A DNA stretch of 47,941 nucleotides, from positions 1 to 47,941 of IMG/VR virus record IMGVR_UViG_3300045747_000648. One strand, 5' to 3'. Position 1 is the stretch's first letter. Each line of letters opens with the position of its first letter. Below the pieces are notes generated by a model. It had not been told where the DNA came from and did no database searches. It worked only from the letters and a program-made list of their open reading frames with translations. A program made the translations under genes and the position numbers. This DNA is from a virus. This document shows positions 67 through 47,941 of the stretch, one piece after another.

Positions 67-143
67 TGGTCAGCGTGAGAGGATTCGGACCTCCGGCCTC
101 CTGCACCCCAAGCAGGCGCTCTACCAAGCTGAGCTACACGCTG
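67..143 (-). tRNA. tRNA-Pro (GGG), CCA encoded
   Basis: Acceptor CAGCGTG pairs perfectly with its 3' strand at 71-77. The anticodon loop is TTGGGGT (GGG). The genome encodes the terminal CCA at 67-69. Confidence 0.92.
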
Positions 144-148
144 ATGAA

Positions 149-225
149 TGGTCAGGGCGAGAGGATTCGAACCTCCAACCTTCTGCTCCCAAAGCAGAAG
201 CTCCGCCAAGTTGAGCTACGCCCTG
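149..225 (-). tRNA. tRNA-Pro (UGG), CCA encoded
   Basis: Acceptor CAGGGCG, anticodon loop TTTGGGA (TGG), T-loop TTCGAAT. CCA is encoded. With its two neighbours it covers all proline codons. Confidence 0.92.
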
Positions 226-232
226 ATGCTAG

Positions 233-304
233 TGACGCGTACGGGACTCGAACCCGTCTCTTCAGCTTGAAAGGCTGAGGACCTCACCCGAAGTCAAACG
301 CGCC
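233..304 (-). tRNA. tRNA-Glu (UUC), no encoded CCA
   Basis: Acceptor GGCGCGT pairs with ACGCGTC (one G-U pair). The anticodon loop is CTTTCAA (TTC). The three bases after the discriminator are CTA rather than CCA, so the tail would have to be added after transcription. Confidence 0.88.
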
Positions 305-307
305 ATG

Positions 308-382
308 TGGTGACCCTGGGGGGAATCGAACCCGCCGTTGCCGGATTGAGAATCCAGTTTCCTACCTCTAGAAGACAGGGCC
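308..382 (-). tRNA. tRNA-Glu (CUC), CCA encoded
   Basis: Acceptor GGCCCTG pairs with CAGGGTC. Anticodon stem CTGGA/TCCGG holds loop TTCTCAA (CTC). CCA is encoded at 308-310. Confidence 0.9.
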
Positions 383-386
383 ATGC

Positions 387-461
387 TGGAGAGTCGCCAG
401 GGATTCGAACCCTGCTCATCGGTGTTGCAGACCGAGGCCATCCCAAGATGACTAGCGACTC
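387..461 (-). tRNA. tRNA-Cys (GCA), CCA encoded
   Basis: Acceptor GAGTCGC pairs with GCGACTC. The anticodon loop CTGCAAC gives GCA. The discriminator is U, the expected identity base for cysteine. CCA is encoded. Confidence 0.9.
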
Positions 462-467
462 GAGAAG

Positions 468-540
468 CTGCTGGGGCAGGACTCGAACCTGCACGTAGGG
501 CGGTTAACAGCCGCCTGCCTTGCCATTTGGCTACCCAGCA
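468..540 (-). tRNA. tRNA-Asn (GUU), no encoded CCA
   Basis: Acceptor TGCTGGG pairs with CCCAGCA. Stem GGCGG/CCGCC holds loop CTGTTAA (GTT). Discriminator G is typical for Asn. The next bases are CTT, so CCA is not encoded. Confidence 0.9.
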
Positions 541-546
541 ATGATG

Positions 547-622
547 TGGAGCCGACGGCGAGAGTCGAACTCGCGGCCTGCCGCTTACAAGGCGGCTGCT
601 CTGCCAACTGAGCTACGTCGGC
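547..622 (-). tRNA. tRNA-Thr (UGU), CCA encoded
   Basis: Acceptor GCCGACG has a perfect partner at 551-557. The loop CTTGTAA gives TGT. CCA is encoded at 547-549. Confidence 0.92.
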
Positions 623-626
623 GTGA

Positions 627-701
627 TGGAAGGGGTGGAAGGATTCGAACCTTCAACTCTCTGCTCCAGAGGCAGATGTTCTGCCGTTGAACTACACCCC
701 T
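627..701 (-). tRNA. tRNA-Gln (CUG), CCA encoded
   Basis: The acceptor AGGGGTG has a weak A1-U72 first pair, as expected for Gln tRNAs. The loop CTCTGGA gives CTG. CCA is encoded. Confidence 0.91.
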
Positions 702-708
702 ATGAACT

Positions 709-782
709 TGGATGGGGAGGCGGGAGTCGGACCCGCATAGCGGGATCCAAAGGCCCGCGTCTTGCCGTTAGACGACTCCCCA
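709..782 (-). tRNA. tRNA-Gln (UUG), CCA encoded
   Basis: The acceptor TGGGGAG and a U1-A72 first pair resemble E. coli tRNA-Gln. The loop CTTTGGA gives TTG. The loop-closing pair of the anticodon stem is a C-U mismatch. CCA is encoded. Confidence 0.88.
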
Positions 783-827
783 ACGAACTTGGTTCTGGTG
801 TGTCGGCTCCTGGGGCCGAAGCAGCTT

Positions 828-899
828 GTCGCCGCTCGAGGAGTTGCACCTCGCACCAGTCCAGGCCTCACGACCTGGAACTCTCTCGCTTTCATCGAC
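828..899 (-). other. degenerate tRNA-like element
   Basis: Read on the minus strand, GTCGATG at one end pairs with CGGCGAC at the other with one mismatch. Inside are a strong hairpin (CCAGG/CCTGG around an 8-base loop TCGTGAGG) and a T-arm-like hairpin CGAGG-TGCAACT-CCTCG. Only 14 bases lie between acceptor and anticodon stem, too few for a normal D-arm, and U33 is absent. It fills the one oversized gap between regular tRNA genes. I read it as a decayed or highly unusual tRNA; GUG (His) in the loop is possible but unproven. Confidence 0.35.
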
Positions 900-969
900 C
901 CTCTGGTTGGATTCGAACCAACGTCCGGCGGGTTCAAAGCCCGCTGCTCTGCCACTGAGCTACAGAGGA
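898..969 (-). tRNA. tRNA-Gln (UUG), second copy, no encoded CCA
   Basis: Acceptor TCCTCTG pairs with CAGAGGG (first pair a U-G wobble). The perfect anticodon stem GCGGG/CCCGC holds CTTTGAA (TTG). The bases after the discriminator are CGA. Its sequence differs clearly from the UUG gene at 709-782, so it is not a recent tandem copy. Confidence 0.88.
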
Positions 970-981
970 TACGAGAGAAGA

Positions 982-1055
982 TGGAGCGGGTAGAGGGACT
1001 CGGACCCTCGTCATCAGCTTGGAAGGCTGAGGTCCTACCATTGGACGATACCCAC
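982..1055 (-). tRNA. tRNA-Gly (UCC), CCA encoded
   Basis: Acceptor GTGGGTA pairs with TACCCGC. The anticodon stem TCAGC/GCTGA holds loop CTTCCAA (TCC). CCA is encoded. Confidence 0.92.
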
Positions 1056-1059
1056 ATGA

Positions 1060-1133
1060 TGGAGCGGCCACCGGGAATCGAACCCGGGTTCTCAGGATGG
1101 GAACCTGAAGTCTTGCCTCTAGACGACGGCCGC
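1060..1133 (-). tRNA. tRNA-Gly (CCC), CCA encoded
   Basis: Acceptor GCGGCCG pairs with TGGCCGC. The loop TTCCCAT gives CCC. CCA is encoded at 1060-1062. Confidence 0.92.
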
Positions 1134-1138
1134 ATGAA

Positions 1139-1213
1139 TGGTGGGTGTGGGGAGACTTGAACTCCCAGCTTGTCGGTTAAGAGCCGACTACTCTGCCATT
1201 GAGTTACACACCC
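1139..1213 (-). tRNA. tRNA-Lys (CUU), CCA encoded
   Basis: Acceptor GGGTGTG has a perfect partner. Stem GTCGG/CCGAC holds loop CTCTTAA (CTT). Discriminator A and CCA are encoded. Confidence 0.92.
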
Positions 1214-1220
1214 AGGAAAG

Positions 1221-1297
1221 TGGTGCACCTGGAGGGATTCGAACCCCCAACCATCTCCTTAAAAGGGAGATGCTCTTGTCCGTTGAGCTACAGGCGC
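1221..1297 (-). tRNA. tRNA-Lys (UUU), CCA encoded
   Basis: Acceptor GCGCCTG pairs with CAGGTGC. Stem TCTCC/GGAGA holds loop CTTTTAA (TTT). CCA is encoded. Confidence 0.92.
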
Positions 1298-1311
1298 GTG
1301 AGTACTACTGA

Positions 1312-1395
1312 GGGCGACTGGGCCGTCGAACACCGATGCGCCCCGCCCGGAGTCCCCAGGCACGGCATCACCAGCGCGGTGCGACCCAGTCGCCC
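1312..1395 (-). other. 84-nt element closed by an 11-bp perfect inverted repeat
   Basis: GGGCGACTGGG at one end and CCCAGTCGCCC at the other form an 11-bp stem enclosing 62 nt, inside the tRNA array where another tRNA would be expected. A small CACC/GGTG hairpin resembles a D-arm, but I find no standard anticodon arm or T-arm. It could be a small structured RNA or a diverged tRNA. The flanks 1298-1311 and 1396-1448 show nothing recognisable. Confidence 0.4.
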
Positions 1396-1448
1396 GCATC
1401 TTCACTGTCACTGCTATTCAGTTGTCAGAGAGCAACATCTACTGCGAG

Positions 1449-1531
1449 TGCCGCCGGAAGGAGTCGAACCTTCTTAGCCCGAGGGCATCTGGTTTACAGC
1501 CAGCCCGGGGACCGTCCCCGGCGTCGTCGGC
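1449..1531 (-). tRNA. tRNA-Tyr (GUA), long variable arm
   Basis: A class II tRNA of 83 nt. The loop is CTGTAAA (GTA), an extended variable arm pairs GCCC with GGGC, and the T-arm is GAAGG/CCTTC. Acceptor GCCGACG pairs with CGGCGGC with one A-G mismatch. Discriminator A. CCA is not encoded. Confidence 0.85.
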
Positions 1532-1535
1532 GTAC

Positions 1536-1609
1536 TGGAGCGGCTACCGGGAATCGAACCCGGGTTTCGAGCTTGGCAAGCTCGCGTCTTACCTCTGGAC
1601 CACAGCCGC
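1536..1609 (-). tRNA. tRNA-Gly (GCC), CCA encoded
   Basis: Acceptor GCGGCTG pairs with TAGCCGC. Stem CGAGC/GCTCG holds loop TTGCCAA (GCC). CCA is encoded. Confidence 0.92.
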
Positions 1610-1621
1610 GTGTTCTGTGAG

Positions 1622-1695
1622 AGCTCCGAGTGGGGATCGAACCCACGACCTCTGGTTTACGAAACCAGCGCTGCTGCCAGCTGAGCTACCGGAGC
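1622..1695 (-). tRNA. tRNA-Thr (CGU), no encoded CCA
   Basis: Acceptor GCTCCGG pairs with TCGGAGC. Stem CTGGT/ACCAG holds loop TTCGTAA (CGT). The bases after the discriminator are CTC. Confidence 0.9.
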
Positions 1696-1701
1696 GTGAA
1701 G

Positions 1702-1772
1702 CAGGTCCCGAGGGAATCGAACCCTCCCAGCCGGTTTTGGAGACCAGCTCGCCGCCTTGGACATGGGGACCT
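1702..1772 (-). tRNA. tRNA-Trp (CCA anticodon)
   Basis: Acceptor AGGTCCC has a perfect partner. Stem CTGGT/ACCGG holds loop CTCCAAA (CCA). Discriminator G is typical of Trp. The 3' CCA is not encoded. This is the first gene of the array in the direction of transcription, so its promoter should lie between 1773 and about 2060; I could not identify one. Confidence 0.9.
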
Positions 1773-2797: not shown

Positions 2798-3018
2798 CCC
2801 GAAGGGGAGGTCACCGCGGATGACGACGTAGTGACGAAGGCTACAGGACTACTGAGGCGTCGCGCATGGAAGAAGCCTAGCCATCCTTCCTGCACTTGTC
2901 CAGCGAAGAGGTTGCCCCGTATCGGCGGGGCCACCCGGCGTCGTTCGGTATTGGCGAGGCCATTCGGACCTGCATCCAGAGGTGGCCACCCCAGGTCCTG
3001 TACGACGCTTCTGGCCTG

Positions 3019-3092
3019 ACCCCTCGATGGGAATCGAACCCACGACCAACCGACTGTAGTCGCCGGCCGCTCTGCCACTGAGCTACGAGGGG
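3019..3092 (-). tRNA. tRNA with extended anticodon arm, CUA at anticodon position (isotype uncertain)
   Basis: Normal acceptor (CCCCTCG/CGAGGGG), D-arm (GCTC/GAGC) and T-arm (GTGGG-TTCGATT-CCCAT) are present. The anticodon arm is 2 nt longer than in the other tRNAs here: a 6-bp stem GCCGGC/GTCGGT with 7-nt loop GACTACA, or a 5-bp stem with a 9-nt loop. In the 7-nt reading positions 34-36 are CTA, which would decode UAG, but position 33 is A instead of U. CCA is not encoded. It stands alone, 1.2 kb from the array and just upstream of the PTH2-like gene. The interval 2885-3018 holds no gene that I can see, only a 6-bp hairpin at 2914-2931. Confidence 0.7.
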
Positions 3093-6794: not shown

Positions 6795-7238
6795 CTAGAA
6801 GCCGAAGTCGAGCGGGTCGACTTCTTGAACGTAGACTTCCACCCGAGCGTTCTCGGGAATGGGGTCATGATGCTTCTCTTGGCTGCCTGCGAAGAAGCGC
6901 GAGTCGTCGATGTCGATGGCGTCGCGCACACAGTCCGTCAAGAGCTTGATTCGGTTGTCGAGGTCGATTCTCTTATACCGCTCTTTCGCTCTTCTTGAGG
7001 GAGCGACCTCGGGGTTGTTCCAGGACATGTTCAGGAGGTCCATGTAGAACCGGAGGTGCACCGCGTAGATGCCCCCTCTGTTCAGCCGGTTGACCTCGTG
7101 GAGGTGGTTCTGGGCGGAGTACTTGGAGAAGCTCTCGGCGAACTCACGAGCTCTCGCGGTCAGCTGCGTCCCCCGGAAGTAGATCTTGTTCGAGGTGGGA
7201 GGCAGTCCTGGGTAGACGATCTTCAGGATGGGGGACAC
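6795..7238 (-). CDS. RusA-like Holliday junction resolvase, 147 aa
   Basis: RusA-family endonucleases cut four-way DNA junctions. The match is to the family pattern: an N-terminal strand followed by PPTSNKIYFRG, a central strand HLRFYMDLLN, the acidic signature RIDLDNRIKLLTDCVRDAI, IDDSRFFAG containing the DD pair, a conserved K-H after it, and a final strand VEVYVQEV. The conserved Asp residues of the active site are present. The GTG start at 7238 has AGGAGA 6 nt upstream. Likely role: resolving recombination or replication intermediates before packaging. Confidence 0.86.
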   Translation of the reverse strand: MSPILKIVYPGLPPTSNKIYFRGTQLTARAREFAESFSKYSAQNHLHEVNRLNRGGIYAVHLRFYMDLLNMSWNNPEVAPSRRAKERYKRIDLDNRIKLLTDCVRDAIDIDDSRFFAGSQEKHHDPIPENARVEVYVQEVDPLDFGF

Positions 7239-18779: not shown

Positions 18780-18810
18780 GGGGGCTGACCTCGTGTGGAA
18801 GTCAGCCCCC
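18780..18810 (-). terminator. hairpin between gene 18839-19156 and the helicase
   Basis: Perfect 10-bp stem GGGGGCTGAC / GTCAGCCCCC with an 11-nt loop. There is only a weak U-stretch on the minus side (GATGCTTTG). It lies 30 nt upstream of the helicase start and may attenuate transcription into the helicase, primase and polymerase genes. Confidence 0.6.
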
Positions 18811-18838
18811 TTATGCCACCTTCGAATGTGGATTCGAA

Positions 18839-24526: not shown

Positions 24527-24558
24527 CTTATCCCAACGACTCGCTGAGACTTTCCTTG
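24527..24558 (-). promoter_or_regulatory. bipartite promoter-like motif, site 1
   Basis: On the plus strand CTTAT-N16-GACTTTCCTTG; on the minus strand CAAGGAAAGTC-N16-ATAAG. Same elements and same spacing as at 31729-31760 and 46501-46532. On the minus strand it is spaced like a -35/-10 pair, 41 nt before ATG 24486. Confidence 0.6.
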
Positions 24559-27081: not shown

Positions 27082-27620
27082 AGATCGCCTCGATGGTGAA
27101 GTACACGGAGAAGGGCAAGCTGGTGAAGAAGGCCCAGTACGCTGCCTTCGCCGACGAGATGGACAAGATCGCCGGCACCTGGATGACCAACGTCGGCAGC
27201 AAGATCGTCAAGGCGGTCAAGGCGGCGCCGAGAGACTCGATGCACGCCGTCACCGACTTCGCCAAGCGCCCGATGCAGTCCATGAAGGAGGGCTGGAAGG
27301 CCACCTGGGATCCGAAGCTCGGCAAGGGCGGGGGCAAGCTCTCTGGTGGCCTCATGCTGGCCGGCACGGCCGCCAGCGTGGCAGGTGCCGTGCCCAAGAA
27401 AGATCCGACTGGTCGGCAGGAGAGCCGGATGACTCGCGGCATGCGCGCCGGTGCGGGGTTCGCCACCGGCCTCGCCGCTGCCAAGCACGGCATCATCCCA
27501 GGCATTGCGTTGGGTGTGGCGGGGGATGTCGCCGCAGGCTACGCTGGCCGCCGCATCGACAAGATGCGAAAGTACGCTCCCCCGGGCGCGGTGCAGGCCC
27601 CACCACCTGAAAGCACTTGA
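27078..27620 (+). CDS. Gly-rich, partly hydrophobic virion-block protein, 180 aa
   Basis: Residues 21-31 repeat the AAFADEMDKI motif. The C-terminal half has two Gly/Ala-rich hydrophobic stretches (LSGGLMLAGTAASVAGAV and GIIPGIALGVAGDVAAGYAG) with glycine-zipper spacing, as in membrane-inserting or pore-forming peptides. It could be an internal virion protein ejected with the DNA. ATG overlaps the preceding TGA; its own TGA overlaps the portal ATG. Confidence 0.8.
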   Translation: MKIASMVKYTEKGKLVKKAQYAAFADEMDKIAGTWMTNVGSKIVKAVKAAPRDSMHAVTDFAKRPMQSMKEGWKATWDPKLGKGGGKLSGGLMLAGTAASVAGAVPKKDPTGRQESRMTRGMRAGAGFATGLAAAKHGIIPGIALGVAGDVAAGYAGRRIDKMRKYAPPGAVQAPPPEST

Positions 27621-29692
27621 TGGCCTACGACAACTTGTCACTCGGCTTCGGTGGGACGTCGCGCTTCAGCGGGCAGCGCGGCCGCACGGCCGATGGCATG
27701 GGGCGCTCTGGCGTCCGCTACCCGTCGCCCTTCTTCGACCTCGGCCAGACCTACCTGCCGCCGGACCAGAAGAAGCTGCTGCACTGGTGCCGCTTCTACT
27801 ACCTGACGAACCCCCTCATCAACTCGGTCGTGCACAAGATGGCGGAGTACCCCATCACCGAGATCATCATCGACGAGAAGGACCAGCAGGTGAAGGAGAA
27901 GTGGGAGGAGATGCTGGGCAGCCACCTGCGCTACCGGCCCTTCCAGATCGAAGTGGGGATCGACTACTTCGCCTACGGCATCTGCATCACCACCATCCAC
28001 TTCCCCTTCACGAAGTGGCTCCAGTGCCGCAACTGCAAGCACAAGGTGCAGGCGAAGAAGACCGTCTACAAGTGGCGCAACCTGGACTACATCATCCAGT
28101 GCGACAAGTGCGGGACGACGGCGCCGGCGAAGGTGCAGGACTTCTACGAGAAGGACCTGCGCCGCATCCGCCTCATGCGGTGGAATCCGGAGTACGTCCA
28201 CGTCGACCCTGGCTTCGCCGGCACGGACCCCGTCTACACCTTCGAGCTCCCGCTCCAGGTCCGCAACGACCTGCTGCTCGGCAAGAAGACCCTGCTCGAC
28301 ACCATCCCCGACGTCTTCGTCGAGGCGCTCCGGCGCAACAAGTTCGTCCGCTTCGCCGACGAGAACATCTTCGTCTTCAAGCGCCCCATCATCAGCCAGA
28401 AGGACAACGGCTGGGGGATGCCGCTGATCTTCCCCGTCCTCAAGGACACCTTCTACCTCCAGGTGCTGCGCAAGGCGCAGGAGGCCATCGCGCAGGAGCA
28501 CATCGTCCCGCTGCGCATCCTCTTCCCGCAGGCAGGCTCCAACACCTCGGATCCCTACACCACGATCAACCTCGACTCCTGGAAGAGCCGGGTCGAGGGT
28601 GAGATCGCGAAGTGGAAGTACGACAACAACTACATCCCCATCCTGCCTCTCCCGATCGGCAACGAGACCATCGGCGGCGATGGGAAGGCGCTCATGCTGC
28701 ACCAGGAGATGCAGGCCTGGTCCGACCAGATCGTGGCCGGCATGGGCGTGCCCCGGGAGTTCGTCTTCGGCGGCCTCCAGTACAGCGGCTCCAACGTCTC
28801 CATGCGGATGCTGGAGAACTCCTTCATCGGCTACCGCGTCGACCACGAGAACATGCTCAACAACTTCGTGATCCGGCGCATCGCCAACTACATGGGCTGG
28901 AAGCCCGTGCGCGCCCACATGAAGCGCTTCAAGATGGCGGACGACCTCCAGCGCACCGCCTTCCTCTTCCAGCTCAACCAGGCGCAGAAGATCTCCGACG
29001 TCACCTTGCTCCAGGAGGCTGATCAGGATCCTGCGGTCGAGGAGCAGAGGAAGAACATCGAGATGGACCGCCAGCTCGAGTACCAGCGCAAGATGGCGAT
29101 CGCGCAGGCTCAGGTGCAGGCGGAAGCCCAGGCCATCCAGATGAAGGCCCAGGCCGAGGTGCAGCAGGAGATGATGGCCAAGGGCATGGCCATGCCGGGT
29201 GCCGAGGGTCAGCCGGGTCAGCCGGGCGTGCCTGGGCAGCCTGGTGCAGAAGGCGCGCAGCCAGGGATGCCTGGGCAACCTGGCGCCGAGGGTGGCCAGC
29301 AGGGCGAGATGATGGAGGGGTCGCAGGCGGCGCCAGGGATGCCTGACAATGCCTCCGTGTCTCCCGCGAACGCGCAGCAGGCCCCGACGGAGGGCGTGCC
29401 TCAGGAGATGCAGAGCCCCATCACGCAGGGCCAGACCGGCGGAGGGATGAACCTCCTCTACCTCGGCCGCCGCGCGGTGGTCGCCATCCACGAGCTCGAG
29501 CAGCAGGACCCTTCCGGAGCGAAGAAGTCTCTCACGCTCCAGACGATGAAGATGTCGAACCCCCAGCTCTACTCCGTCGTCATCCGGATGCTCCAGAGCG
29601 AGCAGGGCTCCCAGGCCAATCCGCTCAGCCCGACGCAGAGCCCCCTCCCACAGCAGAAGCCCGAGAGGCGCCAGTCGCCCGTCGGTGTCTAG
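27620..29692 (+). CDS. portal protein, 690 aa, with zinc ribbon and collagen-like stretch
   Basis: Portal proteins form the dodecameric DNA channel of the head. Support: an N-terminal helical stem region (LHWCRFYYLTNPLINSVVHK), the core segment GMGVPREFVFGGLQYSGSNV with MRMLENSF and a following helix pair typical of phage portals, and size. Unusual additions are a zinc ribbon CRNCKHKV...CDKCGT at about residues 136-160, and a Gly-Pro-Gln tail around residues 525-560 with collagen-like G-x-y repeats (GQPGQPGVPGQPG). ATG 27620 overlaps the previous stop (TGATG). Confidence 0.87.
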   Translation: MAYDNLSLGFGGTSRFSGQRGRTADGMGRSGVRYPSPFFDLGQTYLPPDQKKLLHWCRFYYLTNPLINSVVHKMAEYPITEIIIDEKDQQVKEKWEEMLGSHLRYRPFQIEVGIDYFAYGICITTIHFPFTKWLQCRNCKHKVQAKKTVYKWRNLDYIIQCDKCGTTAPAKVQDFYEKDLRRIRLMRWNPEYVHVDPGFAGTDPVYTFELPLQVRNDLLLGKKTLLDTIPDVFVEALRRNKFVRFADENIFVFKRPIISQKDNGWGMPLIFPVLKDTFYLQVLRKAQEAIAQEHIVPLRILFPQAGSNTSDPYTTINLDSWKSRVEGEIAKWKYDNNYIPILPLPIGNETIGGDGKALMLHQEMQAWSDQIVAGMGVPREFVFGGLQYSGSNVSMRMLENSFIGYRVDHENMLNNFVIRRIANYMGWKPVRAHMKRFKMADDLQRTAFLFQLNQAQKISDVTLLQEADQDPAVEEQRKNIEMDRQLEYQRKMAIAQAQVQAEAQAIQMKAQAEVQQEMMAKGMAMPGAEGQPGQPGVPGQPGAEGAQPGMPGQPGAEGGQQGEMMEGSQAAPGMPDNASVSPANAQQAPTEGVPQEMQSPITQGQTGGGMNLLYLGRRAVVAIHELEQQDPSGAKKSLTLQTMKMSNPQLYSVVIRMLQSEQGSQANPLSPTQSPLPQQKPERRQSPVGV

Positions 29693-31728: not shown

Positions 31729-31760
31729 CTTATGCCGAGAGAGTTCGCGGACTTTCGTTG
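31729..31760 (-). promoter_or_regulatory. bipartite promoter-like motif, site 2
   Basis: Plus strand CTTAT-N16-GACTTTCGTTG, the same as site 1 in 15 of 16 defined positions. On the minus strand its ATAAG box is 47 nt before ATG 31682. Confidence 0.6.
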
Positions 31761-31876: not shown

Positions 31877-34800
31877 TTGGACGACCACATCTCTCCTGAG
31901 CAGTCCTTCGAGACGCTCAAGAAGAACACGCTCGAAGCCATCCAGTCCTACTTCCCCGACGGCAAGTACGCCGGCAGGAAGCAGACCGTCCACCTCACCA
32001 ACCTCCGCGTCGAGGACAACCTCAAGTCCGACGACGTGTCCTCGCAGACTGCGATCAAGGACAAGGACGGCACGTGGGGCGTGCAGGTCAAGGCCGACAT
32101 GAAGCTCGTGGACAACGCCACGGGCAAGGTGCTCGACGAGACCAAGGGCTCCGTCCTCGCCAAGCTGCCCAAGCTGACCAACCGCTACAGCTACATCGTC
32201 AACGGGAGTGAGTACCAGGTCGACCACCTGTTCCGCCTGAAGAGCGGCATCTACGCCCGGGTGCAGGACAACGGCGAGCTCGAGTCGGAGTTCAACCTGG
32301 CGAAGGGCAGCCGCCCCTTCTCGGTCCACCTCGACCCCGTGAAGCGCAAGCTGTCGATGAAGTACGGCAACTCCCACATCCCGCTCTACCCCGTCATGAA
32401 GAGTCTCGGGGTGGCTGACGACGACATCGAGAAGAGCTGGGGCAAGGCGCTCTTCGACGCCAACAAGCCGAAGACCGACGAGAAGTTCAAGGGCTCTCTC
32501 AGCAAGCTCGTGAAGCTGGTGTCCGAGGAGCCTGTCCCTGCGGACCTCTCGGCAGACGACCTGCACAAGCACGTCAACTCCTTCTTCAACCAGATCTCCG
32601 TTCGTCCCGACACCACCAAGCTCACGCTGGGCGAGGCCCACGAGGCGGTGACGGGGAAGACCCTGCTCCAGGCGGCGCACAAGCTGCTGGGCGTCTCGCG
32701 CGGCACGCACCAGCCTGATGACCGAGACAGCCTGGCCTTCAAGGAGACGGCCAGCATCGAGGACTTCATCCCCGAGAAGATCCTGCGCGCCGGCTCCCGT
32801 ACCATCCGGCCCCGGTTGCGGCAGACCATCGACCAGAAGCAGTCGGTCCGCGACATCGTCGCCTCCAACCTCTTCGGCCGTCCGGTGGAGGAGTTCTTCA
32901 CCAAGGGCGGCTCGGTGGCAGAGCGGTCGGAGCAGACCAACCCCATCCAGATGCTCTCGGCGCACCGCAAGACCACGCTGATGTCGAGGGACTTCGGCGG
33001 CATCAAGAGCGACAACTCACTCACCGAGGGCATGCAGACCATCAACCAGAGCCACTTCGGCTTCCTGGATCCGATGCACACGCCAGAGGGTGAGAGGATC
33101 GGCATCACCCTCCACCTCGCTTCCCACGTCCGGAAGAACGGGAAGGACCTCGAGATCCCCGTCTTCGACACCCACACCGGCAAGCCCGCCTGGGTGAACG
33201 CCGTCGACTTCCACGGGGCTGACGCAGTCCTTCCTGACCAGGTGACGTGGGTCGACGGGAAGCCCAAGCCGATCGCGGCCACGGTACGCACCAAGGCTGC
33301 CGGCGGGGACATCGTCGACAAGCCCTTCAAGGACGCGCGCTACGTCATGCCCTCCACCAAGGGCATGTGGAACTACTCCTCCAACCTCGTCCCCTTCCTG
33401 TCGGCCGACAACGGCAACCGCATCATGATGGCCGACAAGCAGATGGAGCAGGCGCTCGGCCTGAAGCACCGAGAGGTCCCGCTGGTCCAGTCGAAGACGG
33501 ACCACCCCGGAGACCCCGACCACACCTTCGAGAAGTTCCTGGGGCACTTCATCGCTTCGCGCTCCCCTGCCGCGGGGAAGATCTCGTCCATCAAGGGCGA
33601 CGTCGTCCACATCGCGGGCGACGACGGCAAGAAGCACGAGGTCCACCTCTACAACAACTTCCCCCTGAACGATGCGAAGGGGATGCTGCACTCGGACCTG
33701 GTGATGAAGGTCGGCGACAAGGTCCGCAAGGGCCAGGTGGTGGCCGACAACAACTTCACCAAGGACGGCAGCCTCGCCATCGGCACCAACCTCCGGGTCG
33801 GCTACATCCCGTACAAGGGCTACAACTTCGAAGACGGCATCGTCATCTCGGAGTGCGCGGCGAAGAAGCTGACCTCCGAGCACCTGCACAAGAAGATCGT
33901 CGAGATCGACCCCGACAACGACCACATCGGCAAGGCGAAGTACCAGGCGTGGGCCATCTCGGAGTCGCAGGCCATGCCGAAGGAGTACCTCGACGCCCTG
34001 GAGGACAACGGCGTCGTGAAGGTTGGCACCAAGGTGAAGCCCGGCCAGGTGCTGGTCGCTGCCATCGGGAAGAACGACACCAAGAAGGCGTCGCTCATGG
34101 CGGCCTACGGCAACAAGCGCGCCTTCAAGCCGGTGAAGAACAAGTCGATGGTCTGGGACGAGGACCACGAGGGGACGGTCACCAAGGTGGTGCACGACCC
34201 CCAGGGCCGCGGCGTCCGCGTCTACGTCCGCACCGACGAGCCCGTCGTCATCGGCGACAAGCTCACTGGCCGGCACGGCAACAAGGGCATCGTCTCGCTG
34301 ATCCTCCCGGACCACGAGATGCCCTTCACCAAGAACGTGAAGGGGGAGCGCGAGCCTCTCCACGTCCTGCTCAACCCCTCAGGCATCCCCTCCCGCATCA
34401 ACCCCGGCCAGATGCTGGAGACGGCTGCGGGGAAGATCGCCGAGAAGACGGGCAAGCCCTACATCGTCGACAACTTCGGGGACCCCCACTCCGACCACCG
34501 CACCAAGCTGGAGAAGGAGCTGAAGACGCACGGCCTCTCCGACGAGGAGACGGTCTACGACCCGAGCGACACCCGGCGAGCACTCGGCTCCGTGCTGGTC
34601 GGGCCCCAGTACGTTCTGAAGCTGAAGCACCAGGTGGAGAAGAAGCTCTCGGCTCGAGGCGGCGGCACGGACGTCAACGGTCGCAAGCTCGCCAACGACA
34701 CCGACCAGCAGCCCGTGAAGGGCGGAGAGCACGGCGGCCAGGGCTTCGGCGCGCTCGAGATGTACTCGCTGCTCGGGCACAACGCTCGCCACAACATCCG

Positions 34801-37800
34801 GGAGATGTCGACCTACAAGAGCGACAACCAGGACATGCTCTTCTGGAACATGATCCAGAACGGGCACGAGCCGCCGCCCCCACAGGTCCCCTTCAGCTAC
34901 AAGAAGTTCGAGGGGCTGCTGCGCGGGCTCGGCGTCAACGTGACGAAGGATGGAACCTCCATCCGCATCCACCCCATCACCAACAAGGAAGTCCTCCGCC
35001 TCACCGGGAACCGGGAGCTGAAGGACGCTGCCAAGACCCTTCGCTCCAAGGACCTGAAGCCAGTGCCGGGCGGGCTCTTCGATGAGCAGCTGACCGGCGG
35101 CCTCGACGGCGACAAGTGGTCCCACATCAAGCTCGACGAGCCGGTGCCCAACCCCATCTTCTGTGGCGGCGGCAACAAGCCCGGTCCCGTCCCCGTCCTC
35201 ATCGGCCTCAAGATGAAGGAGTTCGAGGACGTGATGATGGGGAAGAGGGAGATCGCCGGGCTGACCGGTGGCAAGGCAGTCGAGGCGGCGCTCAAGAAGA
35301 TCGACGTCAACAAGGAGGTCGACTCCCTCAAGCGCGAGCTCCCCAGTCTGCGGGCGGACGAGCTCGACCGGGCCAACAAGAAGCTCAAGTACCTCCTCGC
35401 CCTGAAGGACCTGAACCTCAAGCCCCACGACGCGTACATGATGCACTACGTCCCCGTGGTGCCTCCGAAGTTCCGTCCTGCCTCGGCCACCCCGTCTGGC
35501 GACGTGAACTACTCCCCGCTCAACGGGCACTACAAGAACATCAGCCTCATCAACGAGCACCTCCGCAACTTCGACTCGGCCCACTTCGACGAGAAGCATC
35601 GGCAGCCGCTCCGCACCCAGCTCTGGGATGCGATGAAGGCGCTCCAGGCCGTGGGCACCCACCGCGAGGTCTACGACACGGACCAGAGCGGCAACCGGGC
35701 GCTGAAGGGCATCCTCGACATCATCGGCGGCAAGCCGGGTGAGGAGCAGCCGAAGGAGGGCTACTTCCAGTCCAAGCTGGTGAAGCGCCGGCAGAACCTC
35801 TCCGTTCGCTCCACCATCGTCCCCGAGCCGAAGCTGGGCATCGACGAGGTCGGCCTGCCCAAGGGCGCAGCGATGGAGATGTACAAGCCCTACGTCGTGG
35901 CTCAGCTCCAGAAGTGGAACTTCCATCCCCTGGCGGCGCAGGACGAGATCAAGAAGATGACCCCCATCGCCTTCCGGGCGCTGGAGAAGGTCGTGGTGGA
36001 TCGCCCCCTGCTCCTGAAGCGTGACCCGGTGCTCCACAAGTTCGGGGTCATGGCCTTCAAGCCGAAGCTGGTGGAGGGCAAGGCCATCCAGATCCACCCG
36101 CTGGTCTGCGGCGGCTTCAACGCCGACTTCGACGGCGACACCATGGCAGGCACCATCCCGATGTCCCGGGAGGCTGTGGAGGAGGCGAAGAAGCTCTTCC
36201 CGTCTGCCAACCTCTTCAGCCCCACCAACTACGGGGCCATGTACCTCCCGGCCAACGAGGCGCTGCTCGGGCTCCACCTCCTCTCGAAGTGGGGCAAGAA
36301 GACAGGCAAGACGTTCGCCAGCACGACCGAGCTCAACAAGGCCGTGGACGAGGGTCATGCCGAGGTCACCGACGTCGTCCACGTGAAGGGCATGAAGGAG
36401 CCCACCACGCTGGGTCGGCTGCTGCTCGAGTCGCGCCTCCCTCGAGGCTACTCCCAGAACACGAAGGTGCTTCACGACAGCGGGTTCGAGTTCTCGAAGA
36501 AGGAGCTGAGGAAGATGGCTCCGGAGATCGCCAACAAGCACCGGGACCATTACGCCAACACCGTCGACTCCCTGAAGAACCTCGGCAACGAGTGGTCCTA
36601 CAAGATGGGCTTCTCCATCGGCCTCAAGGACCTGAAGACCATCCCGCAGCGCGACGCCATCATCGGCAGGGCTGAGAAGAAGGTGCACGACCTGGCGAGC
36701 AAGGGCGACGCGCATGACGCCGACGTCATTCGCATCTACCAGGGCGCCACGGGGGAGATCGAGGAGGCCCAGAAGCTCCTGCATGGGGGCGCCACGCAGG
36801 GGAACCACCGCCTCGCCCAGATGGTCTTCTCCGGAGCTCGAGGCGACGCCTCCCAGCTCCGCCAGATGATCGCGGCTCCGATGCTGGTGGAGAGCTCCTC
36901 CGGCAAGGTGGTGCCCTACCCGCTCAAGCGGTCCTTCGCGGAGGGCCTCGACGTCGGGGACTTCTGGATGTACCAGCACGGCGCACGCAAGGGCATGATC
37001 CAGAAGGGCCGCGGCACCGCAGACCCTGGCGCCATCACCAAGGACATCATCAACGCCTCCATGTCGACCCTCATCGTCTCGCCGGACTGCGGGACGAAGG
37101 AGGGCGTCCACATGAAGGTCACCGACGAGGACATCCACGACCGCTACCTGGCGGCCCCCTACAAGCTGAAGGACGGCTCGAACATCAAGGCGGGTGAGCT
37201 CCTCACGCCGGCTGTCCTCTCTCGCCTCAAGAACTCGAAGATCGAGACGGTCTCCGTCCGCAGTGCGCTGAAGTGCGCCCACGGGGACGGGCTGTGCTCG
37301 AAGTGCTTCGGCCTGAACGAGTCCGGTGCCCTCCACGACAACGGGACCAACATCGGCATCCTGGCCAGCCAGGCCATGGGCGAGCCCTCGACCCAGCTCT
37401 CGATGCGGGCCTTCCACACGGGCGGCGTGGCCGGCTCGGCTGCGGGCAAGTCCATCGACGCCATCACCCGCCTGCGCAACCTCCTCGAGATGCCGAAGAG
37501 GATCCGGGACGAGGCCACCGTGTCGATGGCGACAGGCAAGGTCAGCGCCGTTCGCAAGGACCCCGCCGGCGGTGCCGACGTCATCGTCACGAGCTACCAC
37601 AACGACCAGCCGGTGGAGACGAAGCACTACATCCCTCGGCACCTCATCGACGAAGAGGTCAAGGTGGGGTCGCTGGTGAAGAGGGGCGACAAGCTCTCGG
37701 GCGGGTTCGTGAACCCTCACCGCCTGCTCGAGGCGACGAAGAGCATCCACGCCGTGCAGAACTACCTGACCGACGAGCTCCACGACGGGCTGTTCAAGGG

Positions 37801-38191
37801 GCTCGGGGTGCGGCGCAGGAACATCGAAGTGGCCGTCCGCAACATCACCAACCTGACCAAGGTGAAGGACCCGGGCCACTCCGAGTGGCTGCCGGGAGAC
37901 ATCCTTCCTCGTTCCGTGGTCGAGGAGCACAACAGGACGAAGGGGGAGAAGGAGGCTCCGGTCATCCACGAGCCACTCCTCAAGGGCGTCGGAGAGATCC
38001 CGCACAACATCACCACCGACTGGATGGCGCGGCTCAACTACCAGAACCTCCACTCGACGGTGCGCGGCGCGGCCGCCATGGCCCAGAAGTCCAACATCCA
38101 CGGGAGCCACCCCATCCCCGGGCTGGCGTATGGTGCGGAGTTCGGGAAGCCCCCTGCTGACCTGAAGGCCAAGAAGCCCCACGTGTACTAG
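31877..38191 (+). CDS. single-chain RNA polymerase: beta fused to beta-prime, 2104 aa
   Basis: A multisubunit-type RNA polymerase in one chain. Beta part: TNPIQMLSAHRK (about 354), PMHTPEGERIGI (about 398), YNFEDGIVISE (about 648), GRHGNKGIVS (about 797) and GGQGFGALEMYSLL (about 950). It ends PFSYKKFEGLLRGLGV near 1005-1020, the counterpart of the beta C-terminus. Beta-prime follows almost at once: IRIHPITNKEVLRL, PGGLFDEQLTGG (about 1064), VPVVPPKFRP (about 1190), catalytic NADFDGD at 1415-1421, GARGDASQLRQ, the bridge-helix/trigger-loop region GARKGMIQKGRGTADPG, the four-Cys second zinc site (CGTKEG, CAHGDGLCSKC) and MRAFHTGG with the trigger-loop His near 1847. The first zinc ribbon of beta-prime is absent. 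TTG start with AAGGG 7 nt upstream. No alpha or sigma is seen nearby. Confidence 0.95.
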   Translation: MDDHISPEQSFETLKKNTLEAIQSYFPDGKYAGRKQTVHLTNLRVEDNLKSDDVSSQTAIKDKDGTWGVQVKADMKLVDNATGKVLDETKGSVLAKLPKLTNRYSYIVNGSEYQVDHLFRLKSGIYARVQDNGELESEFNLAKGSRPFSVHLDPVKRKLSMKYGNSHIPLYPVMKSLGVADDDIEKSWGKALFDANKPKTDEKFKGSLSKLVKLVSEEPVPADLSADDLHKHVNSFFNQISVRPDTTKLTLGEAHEAVTGKTLLQAAHKLLGVSRGTHQPDDRDSLAFKETASIEDFIPEKILRAGSRTIRPRLRQTIDQKQSVRDIVASNLFGRPVEEFFTKGGSVAERSEQTNPIQMLSAHRKTTLMSRDFGGIKSDNSLTEGMQTINQSHFGFLDPMHTPEGERIGITLHLASHVRKNGKDLEIPVFDTHTGKPAWVNAVDFHGADAVLPDQVTWVDGKPKPIAATVRTKAAGGDIVDKPFKDARYVMPSTKGMWNYSSNLVPFLSADNGNRIMMADKQMEQALGLKHREVPLVQSKTDHPGDPDHTFEKFLGHFIASRSPAAGKISSIKGDVVHIAGDDGKKHEVHLYNNFPLNDAKGMLHSDLVMKVGDKVRKGQVVADNNFTKDGSLAIGTNLRVGYIPYKGYNFEDGIVISECAAKKLTSEHLHKKIVEIDPDNDHIGKAKYQAWAISESQAMPKEYLDALEDNGVVKVGTKVKPGQVLVAAIGKNDTKKASLMAAYGNKRAFKPVKNKSMVWDEDHEGTVTKVVHDPQGRGVRVYVRTDEPVVIGDKLTGRHGNKGIVSLILPDHEMPFTKNVKGEREPLHVLLNPSGIPSRINPGQMLETAAGKIAEKTGKPYIVDNFGDPHSDHRTKLEKELKTHGLSDEETVYDPSDTRRALGSVLVGPQYVLKLKHQVEKKLSARGGGTDVNGRKLANDTDQQPVKGGEHGGQGFGALEMYSLLGHNARHNIREMSTYKSDNQDMLFWNMIQNGHEPPPPQVPFSYKKFEGLLRGLGVNVTKDGTSIRIHPITNKEVLRLTGNRELKDAAKTLRSKDLKPVPGGLFDEQLTGGLDGDKWSHIKLDEPVPNPIFCGGGNKPGPVPVLIGLKMKEFEDVMMGKREIAGLTGGKAVEAALKKIDVNKEVDSLKRELPSLRADELDRANKKLKYLLALKDLNLKPHDAYMMHYVPVVPPKFRPASATPSGDVNYSPLNGHYKNISLINEHLRNFDSAHFDEKHRQPLRTQLWDAMKALQAVGTHREVYDTDQSGNRALKGILDIIGGKPGEEQPKEGYFQSKLVKRRQNLSVRSTIVPEPKLGIDEVGLPKGAAMEMYKPYVVAQLQKWNFHPLAAQDEIKKMTPIAFRALEKVVVDRPLLLKRDPVLHKFGVMAFKPKLVEGKAIQIHPLVCGGFNADFDGDTMAGTIPMSREAVEEAKKLFPSANLFSPTNYGAMYLPANEALLGLHLLSKWGKKTGKTFASTTELNKAVDEGHAEVTDVVHVKGMKEPTTLGRLLLESRLPRGYSQNTKVLHDSGFEFSKKELRKMAPEIANKHRDHYANTVDSLKNLGNEWSYKMGFSIGLKDLKTIPQRDAIIGRAEKKVHDLASKGDAHDADVIRIYQGATGEIEEAQKLLHGGATQGNHRLAQMVFSGARGDASQLRQMIAAPMLVESSSGKVVPYPLKRSFAEGLDVGDFWMYQHGARKGMIQKGRGTADPGAITKDIINASMSTLIVSPDCGTKEGVHMKVTDEDIHDRYLAAPYKLKDGSNIKAGELLTPAVLSRLKNSKIETVSVRSALKCAHGDGLCSKCFGLNESGALHDNGTNIGILASQAMGEPSTQLSMRAFHTGGVAGSAAGKSIDAITRLRNLLEMPKRIRDEATVSMATGKVSAVRKDPAGGADVIVTSYHNDQPVETKHYIPRHLIDEEVKVGSLVKRGDKLSGGFVNPHRLLEATKSIHAVQNYLTDELHDGLFKGLGVRRRNIEVAVRNITNLTKVKDPGHSEWLPGDILPRSVVEEHNRTKGEKEAPVIHEPLLKGVGEIPHNITTDWMARLNYQNLHSTVRGAAAMAQKSNIHGSHPIPGLAYGAEFGKPPADLKAKKPHVY

Positions 38192-38194
38192 CCC

Positions 38195-39283
38195 ATGTCC
38201 CTCTTCCGCAGGCAGCTCGATGATGCAACCGTTCAGCGGGCCAGGGTGCTCGACGTGAACGTCACCAACTACACCCTCGTGGTGCAGACGGAGCTGACGC
38301 AGAAGACACTGGCCTGGGTCTCTTGGTCATCCCCCTACATGCACCCCCACAACGGCGAGGGGATCTACTTCATGCCGGAGGTGGGGTCCATCTGCTGGCT
38401 CATGGAGCCATCGGACGGCGGGATGCCCTTCGTGGTGGGCTGGACCTCGCTGCCCGGGAAGGATCGCAGTCACCGCAACCGGAGACTCGATCTCAACCCG
38501 GGGGACATCTACCTCGGCACCCGTGACGAGAACCACATCCTCCTGCGCCGCGGCGGCGTGGTGGAGATCGGGGCCACCCCTCTGGCCCAGCGCCTCTTCC
38601 TCCCAATCAACAACATGATCAAGGACCTCTGCGCGAACTACTCGCTCCAGACCCTGGGCGGAGAGCTGAAGTGGACCGTCGGCATCCCCGAAGAGAACAG
38701 CTACGGGGACCAGCAGACGACCTTCACCATCAACGCCAAGGAGAAGGCCACCGACGTCGAGCACGTGGCTACGGTCCAAATCGGTTCCCACGGAGCTGAC
38801 GAACCTACTATCCTGAGTCTGGTTCTCCGTGCGTCGGGAGATGCAGGCGCAATCGCCAACCTCACGGTCACGGGGAAGAAGTCCGGGGACTTGGACCTGA
38901 AGTCCGAGGGCAAGATCACCTGGAAGGTGACGGGAGACGTGAAGGTGGATGCCAAGAACATCACGCTCACCGCCAAGCAGAAGGCGGCCCTCATCGGCAC
39001 GCAGGTTGCCGAGATGACCGGCGGGCTGGTGAACATCACCTCCAAGTCCGGAGCCGTCGCAGTTGCGGCTGCCGGCGGGATGGTGGTCTCCACCTCTGGG
39101 GCTGGTCCCGCTCTCACAGCGGGGAAGGGTGCTACGGAGAAGGTGCTGCTGGCCACTCCGGAGCTTCTCGCCTGGCTTCAGTCCCACGTCCACAACATCA
39201 TCGCGCCGGTCCCGAACACCCCGACGAGTACCCCTGTTCCTCCCCTCGTCGGCCGCCCCGCCAACAACCTGAAGGCTTCGTAG
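38195..39283 (+). CDS. baseplate/tail spike protein (gp5/gp45/VgrG-like), 362 aa
   Basis: The N-terminal 100 residues form an OB-like domain (VQRARVLDVNVTNYTLVVQT, then PEVGSICWLMEPSDGGMPFVVGW). A middle region and a repetitive beta stretch follow (GKITWKVTGDVKVDAKNITL, TAKQKAALIGTQVAEMTGG), as in the triple-stranded needle of membrane-piercing spikes. The end SHVHNIIAP has the H-x-H apex motif that binds iron in several spikes, followed by a Pro/Thr-rich tail. It starts 3 nt after the RNAP stop, so the two are co-transcribed and perhaps translationally coupled. Confidence 0.83.
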   Translation: MSLFRRQLDDATVQRARVLDVNVTNYTLVVQTELTQKTLAWVSWSSPYMHPHNGEGIYFMPEVGSICWLMEPSDGGMPFVVGWTSLPGKDRSHRNRRLDLNPGDIYLGTRDENHILLRRGGVVEIGATPLAQRLFLPINNMIKDLCANYSLQTLGGELKWTVGIPEENSYGDQQTTFTINAKEKATDVEHVATVQIGSHGADEPTILSLVLRASGDAGAIANLTVTGKKSGDLDLKSEGKITWKVTGDVKVDAKNITLTAKQKAALIGTQVAEMTGGLVNITSKSGAVAVAAAGGMVVSTSGAGPALTAGKGATEKVLLATPELLAWLQSHVHNIIAPVPNTPTSTPVPPLVGRPANNLKAS

Positions 39284-45191: not shown

Positions 45192-45199
45192 CTTATCCC
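45192..45199 (-). promoter_or_regulatory. possible promoter box reading into the GACTGCC array
   Basis: Minus strand GGGATAAG; with two further bases it matches the box at 46501-46510 exactly (CTTATCCCTA on plus). A -35 like CAANGAAAG is not visible at the usual distance, so this rests on one half of the motif. Confidence 0.35.
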
Positions 45200-46500: not shown

Positions 46501-46532
46501 CTTATCCCTACGGCGCCGAGTTCCTTTCTTTG
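46501..46532 (-). promoter_or_regulatory. bipartite promoter-like motif, site 3
   Basis: Plus strand CTTAT-N16-TCCTTTCTTTG: CTTAT and CTTTCNTTG at the same distance as in sites 1 and 2, only the GA in front is changed. On the minus strand the ATAAG box is 18 nt before ATG 46483. Confidence 0.5.
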
Positions 46533-46831: not shown

Positions 46832-47941
46832 ATGCAAGTCCTCAGCGCAGAAGAGTTCATGCGGAACTACTCCAGCAACGTCGTGATGGTGAACGGCGAG
46901 CCGGAGATCCCTGAGGAGTGGGACTACGAGCCCGCGATCCCCGAGGAGTACATCGACCAGGAGGAGCTCGCCAAGAGACGGGCCGACCTCATCAACATCT
47001 CCCCGTCCCAGTTCACCGAGTTCGCCGTCCGCATCCCCGACAAGGAGAGCCAGAAGCACGTCAACTTCAGCTTCGCCGGGCGTGAGTACCTCCGCCTTCC
47101 GTATGACACACCGGCCAGGCGCACCCTCTTCAAGTGCGGCCGCCAGGTGGAGAAGAGCACGCTGCTGGGCAACCGCACGCTCTCCTACTGCTGCGTCATC
47201 AACGCCTTCAACGTCCTCTACGTCTCGCCCACCAACCAGCAGACCAAGACCTTCTCCCGGGACCGGCTCAAGGAGCCGATGGAGACCAGCGATGTCTTGA
47301 AGAGCTGGACCACCACCAAGCTCTCGGACAACGTCTTCGAGAAGCAGTTCATCAACCGCTCGAAGGTCACGCTCCGCTACGCCTACCACCACGCCGACCG
47401 AGTCCGCGGCATCCCCGCGGACATGATCGAGATCGACGAGATCCAGGACATCAACACCGACAACATCCCCATCATCGAGGAGTGCGCGTCCCACTCCCCC
47501 TACAAGATCTTCACCTACTCAGGGACGCCGAAGACCCTCGACAACGCCATCGAGAAGTACTGGAACGACTTCAGCACCCAGAACGAGTGGGTGGTTCCTT
47601 GCGAGAGGCACGGGACTCCGAACGACCCCTCGAGCTGGCACTGGAACATCCTCACGGAAGAGAGCATCGGGAAGAAGGGCCTCGTCTGCGACAAGTGCCA
47701 CGAGGTCATCAACCCCACACACCCCAGTGCTCAGTGGGCCTCCCTCTACCCGGAGATCCGCAGGCCGGCGCAGGACGGGGGCCTGGGTGACAAGGCCTTC
47801 GAGGGCTTCCGCATCCCGCAGCTGATGGTGCCGTGGCTGAAGTGGGACGACATCCTGGTGAAGTTCCAGACGTACCCGCGCGGCCGCTTCTACAACGAGG
47901 TGCTCGGTCTCTCGTACGACTCGGGCACCCGCCCCCTGATG
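46832..47941 (+). CDS. terminase large subunit, N-terminal 370 residues (runs off the window)
   Basis: The packaging motor ATPase. The frame from ATG 46832 (AGGGAGAGTG upstream) is open to the window end. Walker A is FKCGRQVEKSTLLG, with Glu where most P-loops have Gly; the strand FNVLYVSPTNQQTKTFSRDR follows (adenine/motif Ia region). Walker B is MIEIDEIQDI with the catalytic Glu. The coupling motif is FTYSGTPKTLDNAI. A zinc site, CERHGTPN...CDKCHEV, is inserted after it. The nuclease domain lies beyond the edge. Confidence 0.92.
   Translation, partial: MQVLSAEEFMRNYSSNVVMVNGEPEIPEEWDYEPAIPEEYIDQEELAKRRADLINISPSQFTEFAVRIPDKESQKHVNFSFAGREYLRLPYDTPARRTLFKCGRQVEKSTLLGNRTLSYCCVINAFNVLYVSPTNQQTKTFSRDRLKEPMETSDVLKSWTTTKLSDNVFEKQFINRSKVTLRYAYHHADRVRGIPADMIEIDEIQDINTDNIPIIEECASHSPYKIFTYSGTPKTLDNAIEKYWNDFSTQNEWVVPCERHGTPNDPSSWHWNILTEESIGKKGLVCDKCHEVINPTHPSAQWASLYPEIRRPAQDGGLGDKAFEGFRIPQLMVPWLKWDDILVKFQTYPRGRFYNEVLGLSYDSGTRPLM

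Follow-up and report, generated by a model that had tools for sequence, protein, structure and literature searches.

The viral DNA fragment IMGVR_UViG_3300045747_000648 (here called the window: the whole analysed stretch, a linear, single metagenomic piece of 47,941 bases from IMG/VR) encodes an RNA polymerase (RNAP) in which counterparts of the bacterial beta and beta-prime subunits form one polypeptide; its frame (31877-38191, plus strand) runs through 2104 codons without an internal stop. Domain order, catalytic residues and an RpoB/RpoC fold identify the protein as a multi-subunit-type (two double-psi beta-barrel) RNA polymerase. The best explanation of its gene context and of published data on a cultured relative, considered probable here, is that this fused core is delivered by the virion together with a sigma factor and serves early transcription.

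A fused core with the catalytic residues of bacterial RNA polymerase

Pfam domains follow each other along the chain in the order Rpb2_3, Rpb2_6, Rpb1_1, Rpb1_2, Rpb1_3 and Rpb1_5, with Rpb1_1 under its cut-off, and in phmmer the C-terminal half matched solved bacterial beta-prime chains with E values down to 2.2e-118. In the alignment with RpoB and RpoC of Escherichia coli K-12 (25% identity over 2010 aligned residues), the last part of E. coli beta is aligned as far as the junction at approximately residues 1019-1028, and beta-prime residue 19 onward comes directly after it; the linker, near residue 1025, is almost nil. A first-pass annotation, made from the letters of this DNA, had read the frame in just this way, as beta and beta-prime signatures in order with almost no linker, and had proposed Pfam models and structure prediction as checks; both bear it out. 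Structure models were made as two overlapping AlphaFold pieces, the full chain being too long for one fold: residues 281-1480 (pLDDT 84.6, pTM 0.76) and residues 905-2104 (pLDDT 88.1, pTM 0.85). Foldseek matched the beta-side model to RpoB (E 1.4e-52, TMq 0.52, covering the beta core) and the beta-prime-side model to RpoC (E 2.3e-68, TMq 0.80).

The catalytic motifs, described as canonical in the first-pass annotation, are conserved throughout the family: scored over 65 members in E. coli numbering, beta-prime R425, N458, D460/D462/D464, R780, F935 and H936 are invariant, as are beta D814, K1065, K1073, R1106 and R678, while the bridge-helix positions T786, K789 and A791 are altered or variable. 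At rifampicin-contact positions of the alignment, the window residues differ from those of E. coli (H526 is A, R529 is K, S531 is T and R540 is S). The clamp-helix region (Table 1) is presumably the docking site to be expected for sigma region 2.

The chain had also been described as approximately 700 residues shorter than bacterial beta plus beta-prime, which is correct against E. coli (2749 amino acids) but not against several bacterial pairs that total 2345-2450 amino acids. Three E. coli segments without a counterpart in the window RNAP (beta 229-345, beta 939-1048 and beta-prime 943-1128; 117, 110 and 186 amino acids), which are taken here to be lineage-specific inserts, account for most of the size gap to E. 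coli. A real loss, unlike these segments, is that of the N-terminal zinc ribbon of beta-prime (C70-C88), which is missing from every phage row shown of the alignment.

A missed stop or a frameshift at the junction, named earlier as the weak point of a fused reading, is excluded in practice because the frame is intact in the four relatives returned by a first IMG/VR scan at 65-95% identity (L002 and L003, 95%; L004, 87%, with its start beyond the contig end; L005, 65%), and because every other untruncated locus that was inspected has a single open reading frame (ORF), typically of approximately 2060-2240 amino acids; locus L039 represents a different, split form. Although the window comes from only one metagenomic fragment, the chance that faulty assembly or sequencing of one contig produced the fusion is negligible, since dozens of independent contigs, two contigs of metagenome-assembled genomes (MAGs) and the cultured Salmonella phage Arash (OQ632216) and Vibrio phage D69 have the two subunits fused at the same place.

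Family, phylogeny and known polymerases

The first-pass annotation had presented the enzyme as rare and as close to cellular RNAP, and neither view is borne out. Of 550 IMG/VR stretches picked up by a profile scan, at least 485 code for relatives, and the best 79 of these loci were inspected together with those of earlier scans; in the genome collection, among the matches returned, only the two MAG contigs (L113, L114) have the fused form, and the others resemble ordinary bacterial loci. In a tree of 22 fused phage sequences, Arash, D69, Cobetia phage Carin-5 (PV155638) and 25 bacterial references (1919 columns, LG+C20, quick search, root not inferred; no archaeal or Helicobacter rows), fused phages plus Arash and D69 form one group and bacteria another, each with an SH-aLRT support of 100, so that phages and cells lie on opposite sides of the branch and the window RNAP belongs to a distinct phage clade apart from the bacterial references. 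Placement of Arash and D69 inside or outside the fused group has a support of 67, and Carin-5 forms a very long, distant branch. Two records named as phages, 'Staphylococcus phage SA 1306 Kay' and 'Enterococcus phage Efs 1-1-1' (L040 and L041; OR844998 and OR846602), were rejected as sources of phage RNAP; they carry ordinary rpoB and rpoC genes that stand beside Bacillota in the tree and are probably bacterial contamination.

Several family members carry inserted elements. The fused RNAP of L030 (7983-16871 of IMGVR_UViG_3300009514_000017; 2962 amino acids) contains two intein-like inserts with LAGLIDADG domains, one of them immediately after the catalytic NADFDGD, and that of L077 (7980-15389) an intein-like insert of approximately 407 amino acids, also with a LAGLIDADG domain, immediately after the trigger-loop histidine; the inserts are the reason for the greater length of these two chains. 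In Vibrio phage D181 (L015, 4314-4594), a group I intron (Rfam RF00028) that adjoins a homing endonuclease ORF splits the beta part of the RNAP gene; the same stretch is uninterrupted in D69. Finally, the 55.8-kb contig G023 encodes a divergent phage beta distributed over at least three frames (L234, 12847-14790; L235, 6898-9608), approximately 31% identical to the fused form.

One-chain RNAPs occur also as the YonO protein and in crAss-like phages, where the enzyme is presumably virion-packaged. The window RNAP aligns domain by domain with bacterial RNAP, and is set apart from these enzymes by their published description, according to which both are far more divergent and the crAss-like RNAP lacks a recognizable COG0085/0086 match (PMC7481178). 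The RNAPs of the jumbo phages phiKZ and AR9 are likewise beta/beta-prime homologs with a virion form for early genes, but they consist of four or five separate chains and have no sigma homologs (PMC7598289), whereas the window family combines one chain with a sigma-like protein. Carin-5 encodes beta, beta-prime and sigma together, with the sigma gene adjacent, but beta and beta-prime are two separate genes. The Helicobacter-type rpoB-rpoC fusion also places beta before beta-prime in one chain, and its model NF007172 is the best-scoring NCBIfam model for the window RNAP; the score is 566 bits against a cut-off of 5372, none of the curated NCBIfam equivalog cut-offs for RpoB, RpoC or their fusion is passed, and the window RNAP differs in its phage clade and in having no beta-prime N-terminal zinc ribbon.

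The phage RNAP lineage mReC (multi-subunit-RNAP-encoding Caudovirales; Weinheimer and Aylward 2020, PMC7481178) is similar in that it was found in IMG/VR, is detectable with cellular models, keeps NADxDGD and forms a clade apart from cellular RNAP; the window RNAP, too, combines NADxDGD with a position apart from its bacterial homologs. The mReC capsid marker PF07068 had no match in 22 related records (the 20 contigs, Arash and D69 used for all genome-wide partner searches, several of them incomplete), while the positive control, Rhizobium phage TM21B, was detected; within mReC itself, major capsid proteins are known for only 8 of 97 contigs, and the text of that paper mentions no fused chain in mReC (PMC7481178). 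The terminase scores best to PF05876, with the mReC terminase model PF03237 under its cut-off. The mReC lineage may overlap with the fused-RNAP family and may include these contigs. One-chain phage RNAPs, multi-subunit phage RNAPs and the mReC lineage (PMC7481178) are already known; new in this analysis are the co-occurring sigma-like protein and the strand-biased promoter-like motif described below. No description of a beta/beta-prime fusion in the lineage of the window RNAP was found in a literature search that excluded subscription papers, preprints and supplements.

Sigma-like partner, promoter-like motif and gene neighborhood

A divergent sigma-70-like protein is encoded in 20 of the 22 related records (18 of the 20 contigs, Arash and D69). 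The profile that detects it was built from four proteins (G001, G010, G019 and Arash); without the four corresponding records, matches remain in 16 of 18, and Rhizobium phage TM21B gave no match. The profile matched sigma factors in the PDB (7.7e-17), and the recognition of regions 2-4 by sigma profiles or structures assigns the predicted partner to the sigma-70 family; the Pfam models of region 2 and region 4 alone missed most of the homologs. In G001, a 198-kb contig whose RNAP is 95% identical to that of the window, the sigma-like gene (50434-51297, plus strand) is homologous to Arash gp010; this copy, the closest to the window, has a weak score on its own. Region-4-like matches in G001, G003 and G004 (L009-L011) were rejected as sigma candidates, since the sequences, when read, were unlike sigma factors. 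A second, different sigma-factor gene is present in both D69 (VPHD69_0246) and Arash (gp196). Of the partners that the first-pass annotation had suggested looking for, a sigma-like protein was found in relatives, outside the window fragment, whereas alpha (PF01193) had no match and omega (PF01192) no match above the cut-off in the 22 records; the controls were detected in 13 of 14 cases for alpha and in 14 of 14 for omega.

The motif GGCATAA(G) emerged from k-mer counts upstream of G001 genes. In this contig, the minus strand has 14 copies of GG(C/G)ATAAG, all with an A at -17, and the plus strand has none. Unsupervised counts gave GGCATAA in G008, GGGATAA in G006, GGTATAA in G012 and Arash, and TATAAGA in G009; the same core is thus found across genomes of 52-64% G+C, Arash included. 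Enrichment in intergenic regions, based on gene calls from a simple caller of our own, was significant in seven genomes (p from 5e-7 to 2e-16). Over 86 loci, some of them near-identical so that the counts are not all independent, A(N16)GGNATAAG was observed 113 times against 24.2 expected, with 104 copies opposite to the RNAP strand and 9 on it; in a bacterial control (contigs of 1.46 Mb) it was observed 26 times against 46.7 expected. The motif is intergenic and strand-biased and stands ahead of mainly replication and metabolic genes; all six copies in the window are on the minus strand (Table 1).

The RNAP gene lies between a portal and a spike-like gene, as the first-pass annotation had it; homology, phrog_2833 and a weak PF04717 match are the evidence. 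In Arash, whose RNAP is 32% identical to that of the window, the portal and a small gene are followed by gp206 (1525 amino acids, corresponding to beta and the first part of beta-prime), intervening genes and gp216, the C-terminal third of beta-prime; D69 has the same gene plan. Arash and the Vibrio phages D69, D181 and D148 share with the window family the RNAP lineage (approximately 29-32% identity), the upstream portal, and a homologous terminase and sigma-like protein; G001 and Arash have in common the sigma-like protein, the tail genes, the major capsid protein, the terminase and the portal.

The window also contains seventeen clustered tRNA genes (67-1771, minus strand) and a separate tRNA with the anticodon CTA, called tRNA-Pyl (3018-3092, minus strand); a CTA tRNA was also found in G004. 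TAG is the stop codon in 25 of 56 called genes of the window phage and therefore a common stop, which makes genome-wide amber recoding unlikely.

Table 1. Features of the fused RNAP gene, its neighbors and the promoter-like motif in the window.
Feature	Position	Strand	Evidence
Fused beta/beta-prime RNAP, 2104 amino acids, TTG start	31877..38191	+	Open frame, Pfam, phmmer, NCBIfam
Beta-like part, residues ~1-1025	31877..34951	+	E. coli RpoB alignment, Foldseek to RpoB
Beta-prime-like part, residues ~1026-2104, without N-terminal zinc ribbon	34952..38188	+	Alignment, Foldseek TMq 0.80 to RpoC
Clamp-helix region, residues ~1214-1260	35516..35656	+	Alignment; helices in model
Catalytic NADFDGD, residues 1415-1421	36119..36139	+	Asn and three Asp invariant in 65 members
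Bridge helix, residues ~1693-1728, single long helix in model	36953..37060	+	Alignment, AlphaFold
Second beta-prime zinc site, Cys 1738, 1800, 1807 and 1810 kept	37088..37306	+	Alignment
Trigger loop GEPSTQLSMRAFHTGG, His1847 = E. coli H936	37379..37426	+	Alignment
Portal gene, phrog_2833, homolog of Arash gp204	27620..29692	+	Upstream of RNAP in 70 loci
Baseplate/spike-like gene, weak PF04717, homolog of Arash gp238	38195..39283	+	Follows RNAP in 73 loci with a median gap of 1 base
Terminase large subunit, cut by window end, homolog of Arash gp1	46859..47941	+	Homology
Promoter-like motif GGGATAAG, A at -17	46501..46508	-	Motif scan
Promoter-like motif GGGATAAG, A at -17	45192..45199	-	Motif scan
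Promoter-like motif GGCATAAG, divergent from RNAP gene	31729..31736	-	Motif scan
Promoter-like motif GGGATAAG, upstream of helicase cluster	24527..24534	-	Motif scan
Promoter-like motif GGCATAAG, 60 bases upstream of DnaB-like helicase gene	18810..18817	-	Motif scan
Promoter-like motif GGTATAAG, A at -17	6972..6979	-	Motif scan

Proposed packaging, promoter use and time of action

The fused chain would constitute the catalytic core of a phage-encoded, bacterial-type RNAP. Since its gene lies within the structural block, the protein is probably made late; it would be packaged in the virion with the dedicated, divergent sigma-70-like factor, both would enter the cell with the DNA, and the packaged enzyme would transcribe early genes of the opposite strand (replication, nucleotide metabolism) from A-N16-GG(C/G/T)ATAAG promoters. 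Fusion in cis would allow the core to assemble without alpha and omega. The RNAP and sigma genes are located on the structural strand, and most replication genes follow the motif on the opposite one; by analogy, this layout would match a late-made, packaged, early-acting polymerase of the kind found in N4 and phiKZ.

The presence of RNAP and sigma in virions is established only in the relative Arash: among 116 virion proteins, gp206 had the highest number of spectra (3516, more than the major capsid protein) and 128 unique peptides, gp216 had 1210 spectra and the sigma factor gp010 had 467; gp206 is annotated there only as 'beta', and the passages considered here mention no fusion (PMC10585845). 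For the window phage we infer packaging, pairing with sigma and promoter use, and likewise enzyme activity, sigma binding, timing and independence from host alpha and omega. The earlier suggestion that the enzyme could be packaged or used for late genes is supported in its first half, through homology to Arash gp206 and gp216; late use is less likely than early use, given that most copies of the promoter-like motif are on the opposite strand, that of the replication and metabolic genes.

Several observations weigh against virion-delivered early transcription. The sigma-like gene lies outside the window fragment and is seen in relatives only; the motif is not enriched in D69, although this phage has both RNAP and sigma, and the A at -17 is not clear in Arash; transcript data were found for none of the family members. 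Arash itself, only 32% identical, differs from the window, as do the Vibrio phages D69, D181 and D148, in the separate gene for the C-terminal third of beta-prime, in AADYDGD at the active site and in an altered trigger loop. Its authors propose early transcription or carry-over for the virion RNAP, with the comment that abundant enzymes may simply carry over into purified particles (PMC10585845). Carry-over would fit an enzyme that is made after infection for middle or late genes while host RNAP reads the early genes, a scheme consistent with the RNAP gene in the structural block and with the missing enrichment in D69; the prominence of gp206 in Arash particles, above the major capsid protein, and the avoidance of the structural-gene strand by the motif make it unlikely.

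A different role for the motif, as a promoter for host RNAP or for host RNAP with a phage sigma, and unrelated to the phage polymerase, is a minority possibility that deserves somewhat more weight: GGNATAAG is loosely similar to a -10 element, and Arash has its second sigma factor gp196, but the core is the same in genomes of 52-64% G+C, is not enriched in bacterial contigs and, D69 excepted, co-occurs with the RNAP and sigma pair. It is quite improbable that the single-chain core borrows alpha, omega or sigma from the host; clamp helices and a flap-tip-like helix are kept in the alignment and no phage alpha or omega was found, yet the dedicated sigma-like gene co-occurs nearly always and the enzyme is far from cellular RNAP in the tree. 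Virion-delivered early transcription by the fused core and its sigma continues to be the preferred reading. Its extension to the family as a whole, i.e., a widespread group of tailed phages with a two-polypeptide holoenzyme (fused core and dedicated sigma) that dispenses with alpha and omega, is delivered by the virion and has its own conserved promoter, is judged slightly likelier to be true than false.

The size of the family is also relevant to claims that phage RNAPs have a deep origin, a question on which the unrooted tree without archaeal rows makes no claim. If the fused core functions as proposed, a natural one-chain enzyme that can be aligned with bacterial RNAP could be used to study the assembly of beta with beta-prime and the reasons why alpha, omega and the zinc ribbon are required. 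The co-occurrence of sigma and the promoter-like motif make the question of which genes these phage RNAPs target directly testable, and an isolated relative, Arash, exists.

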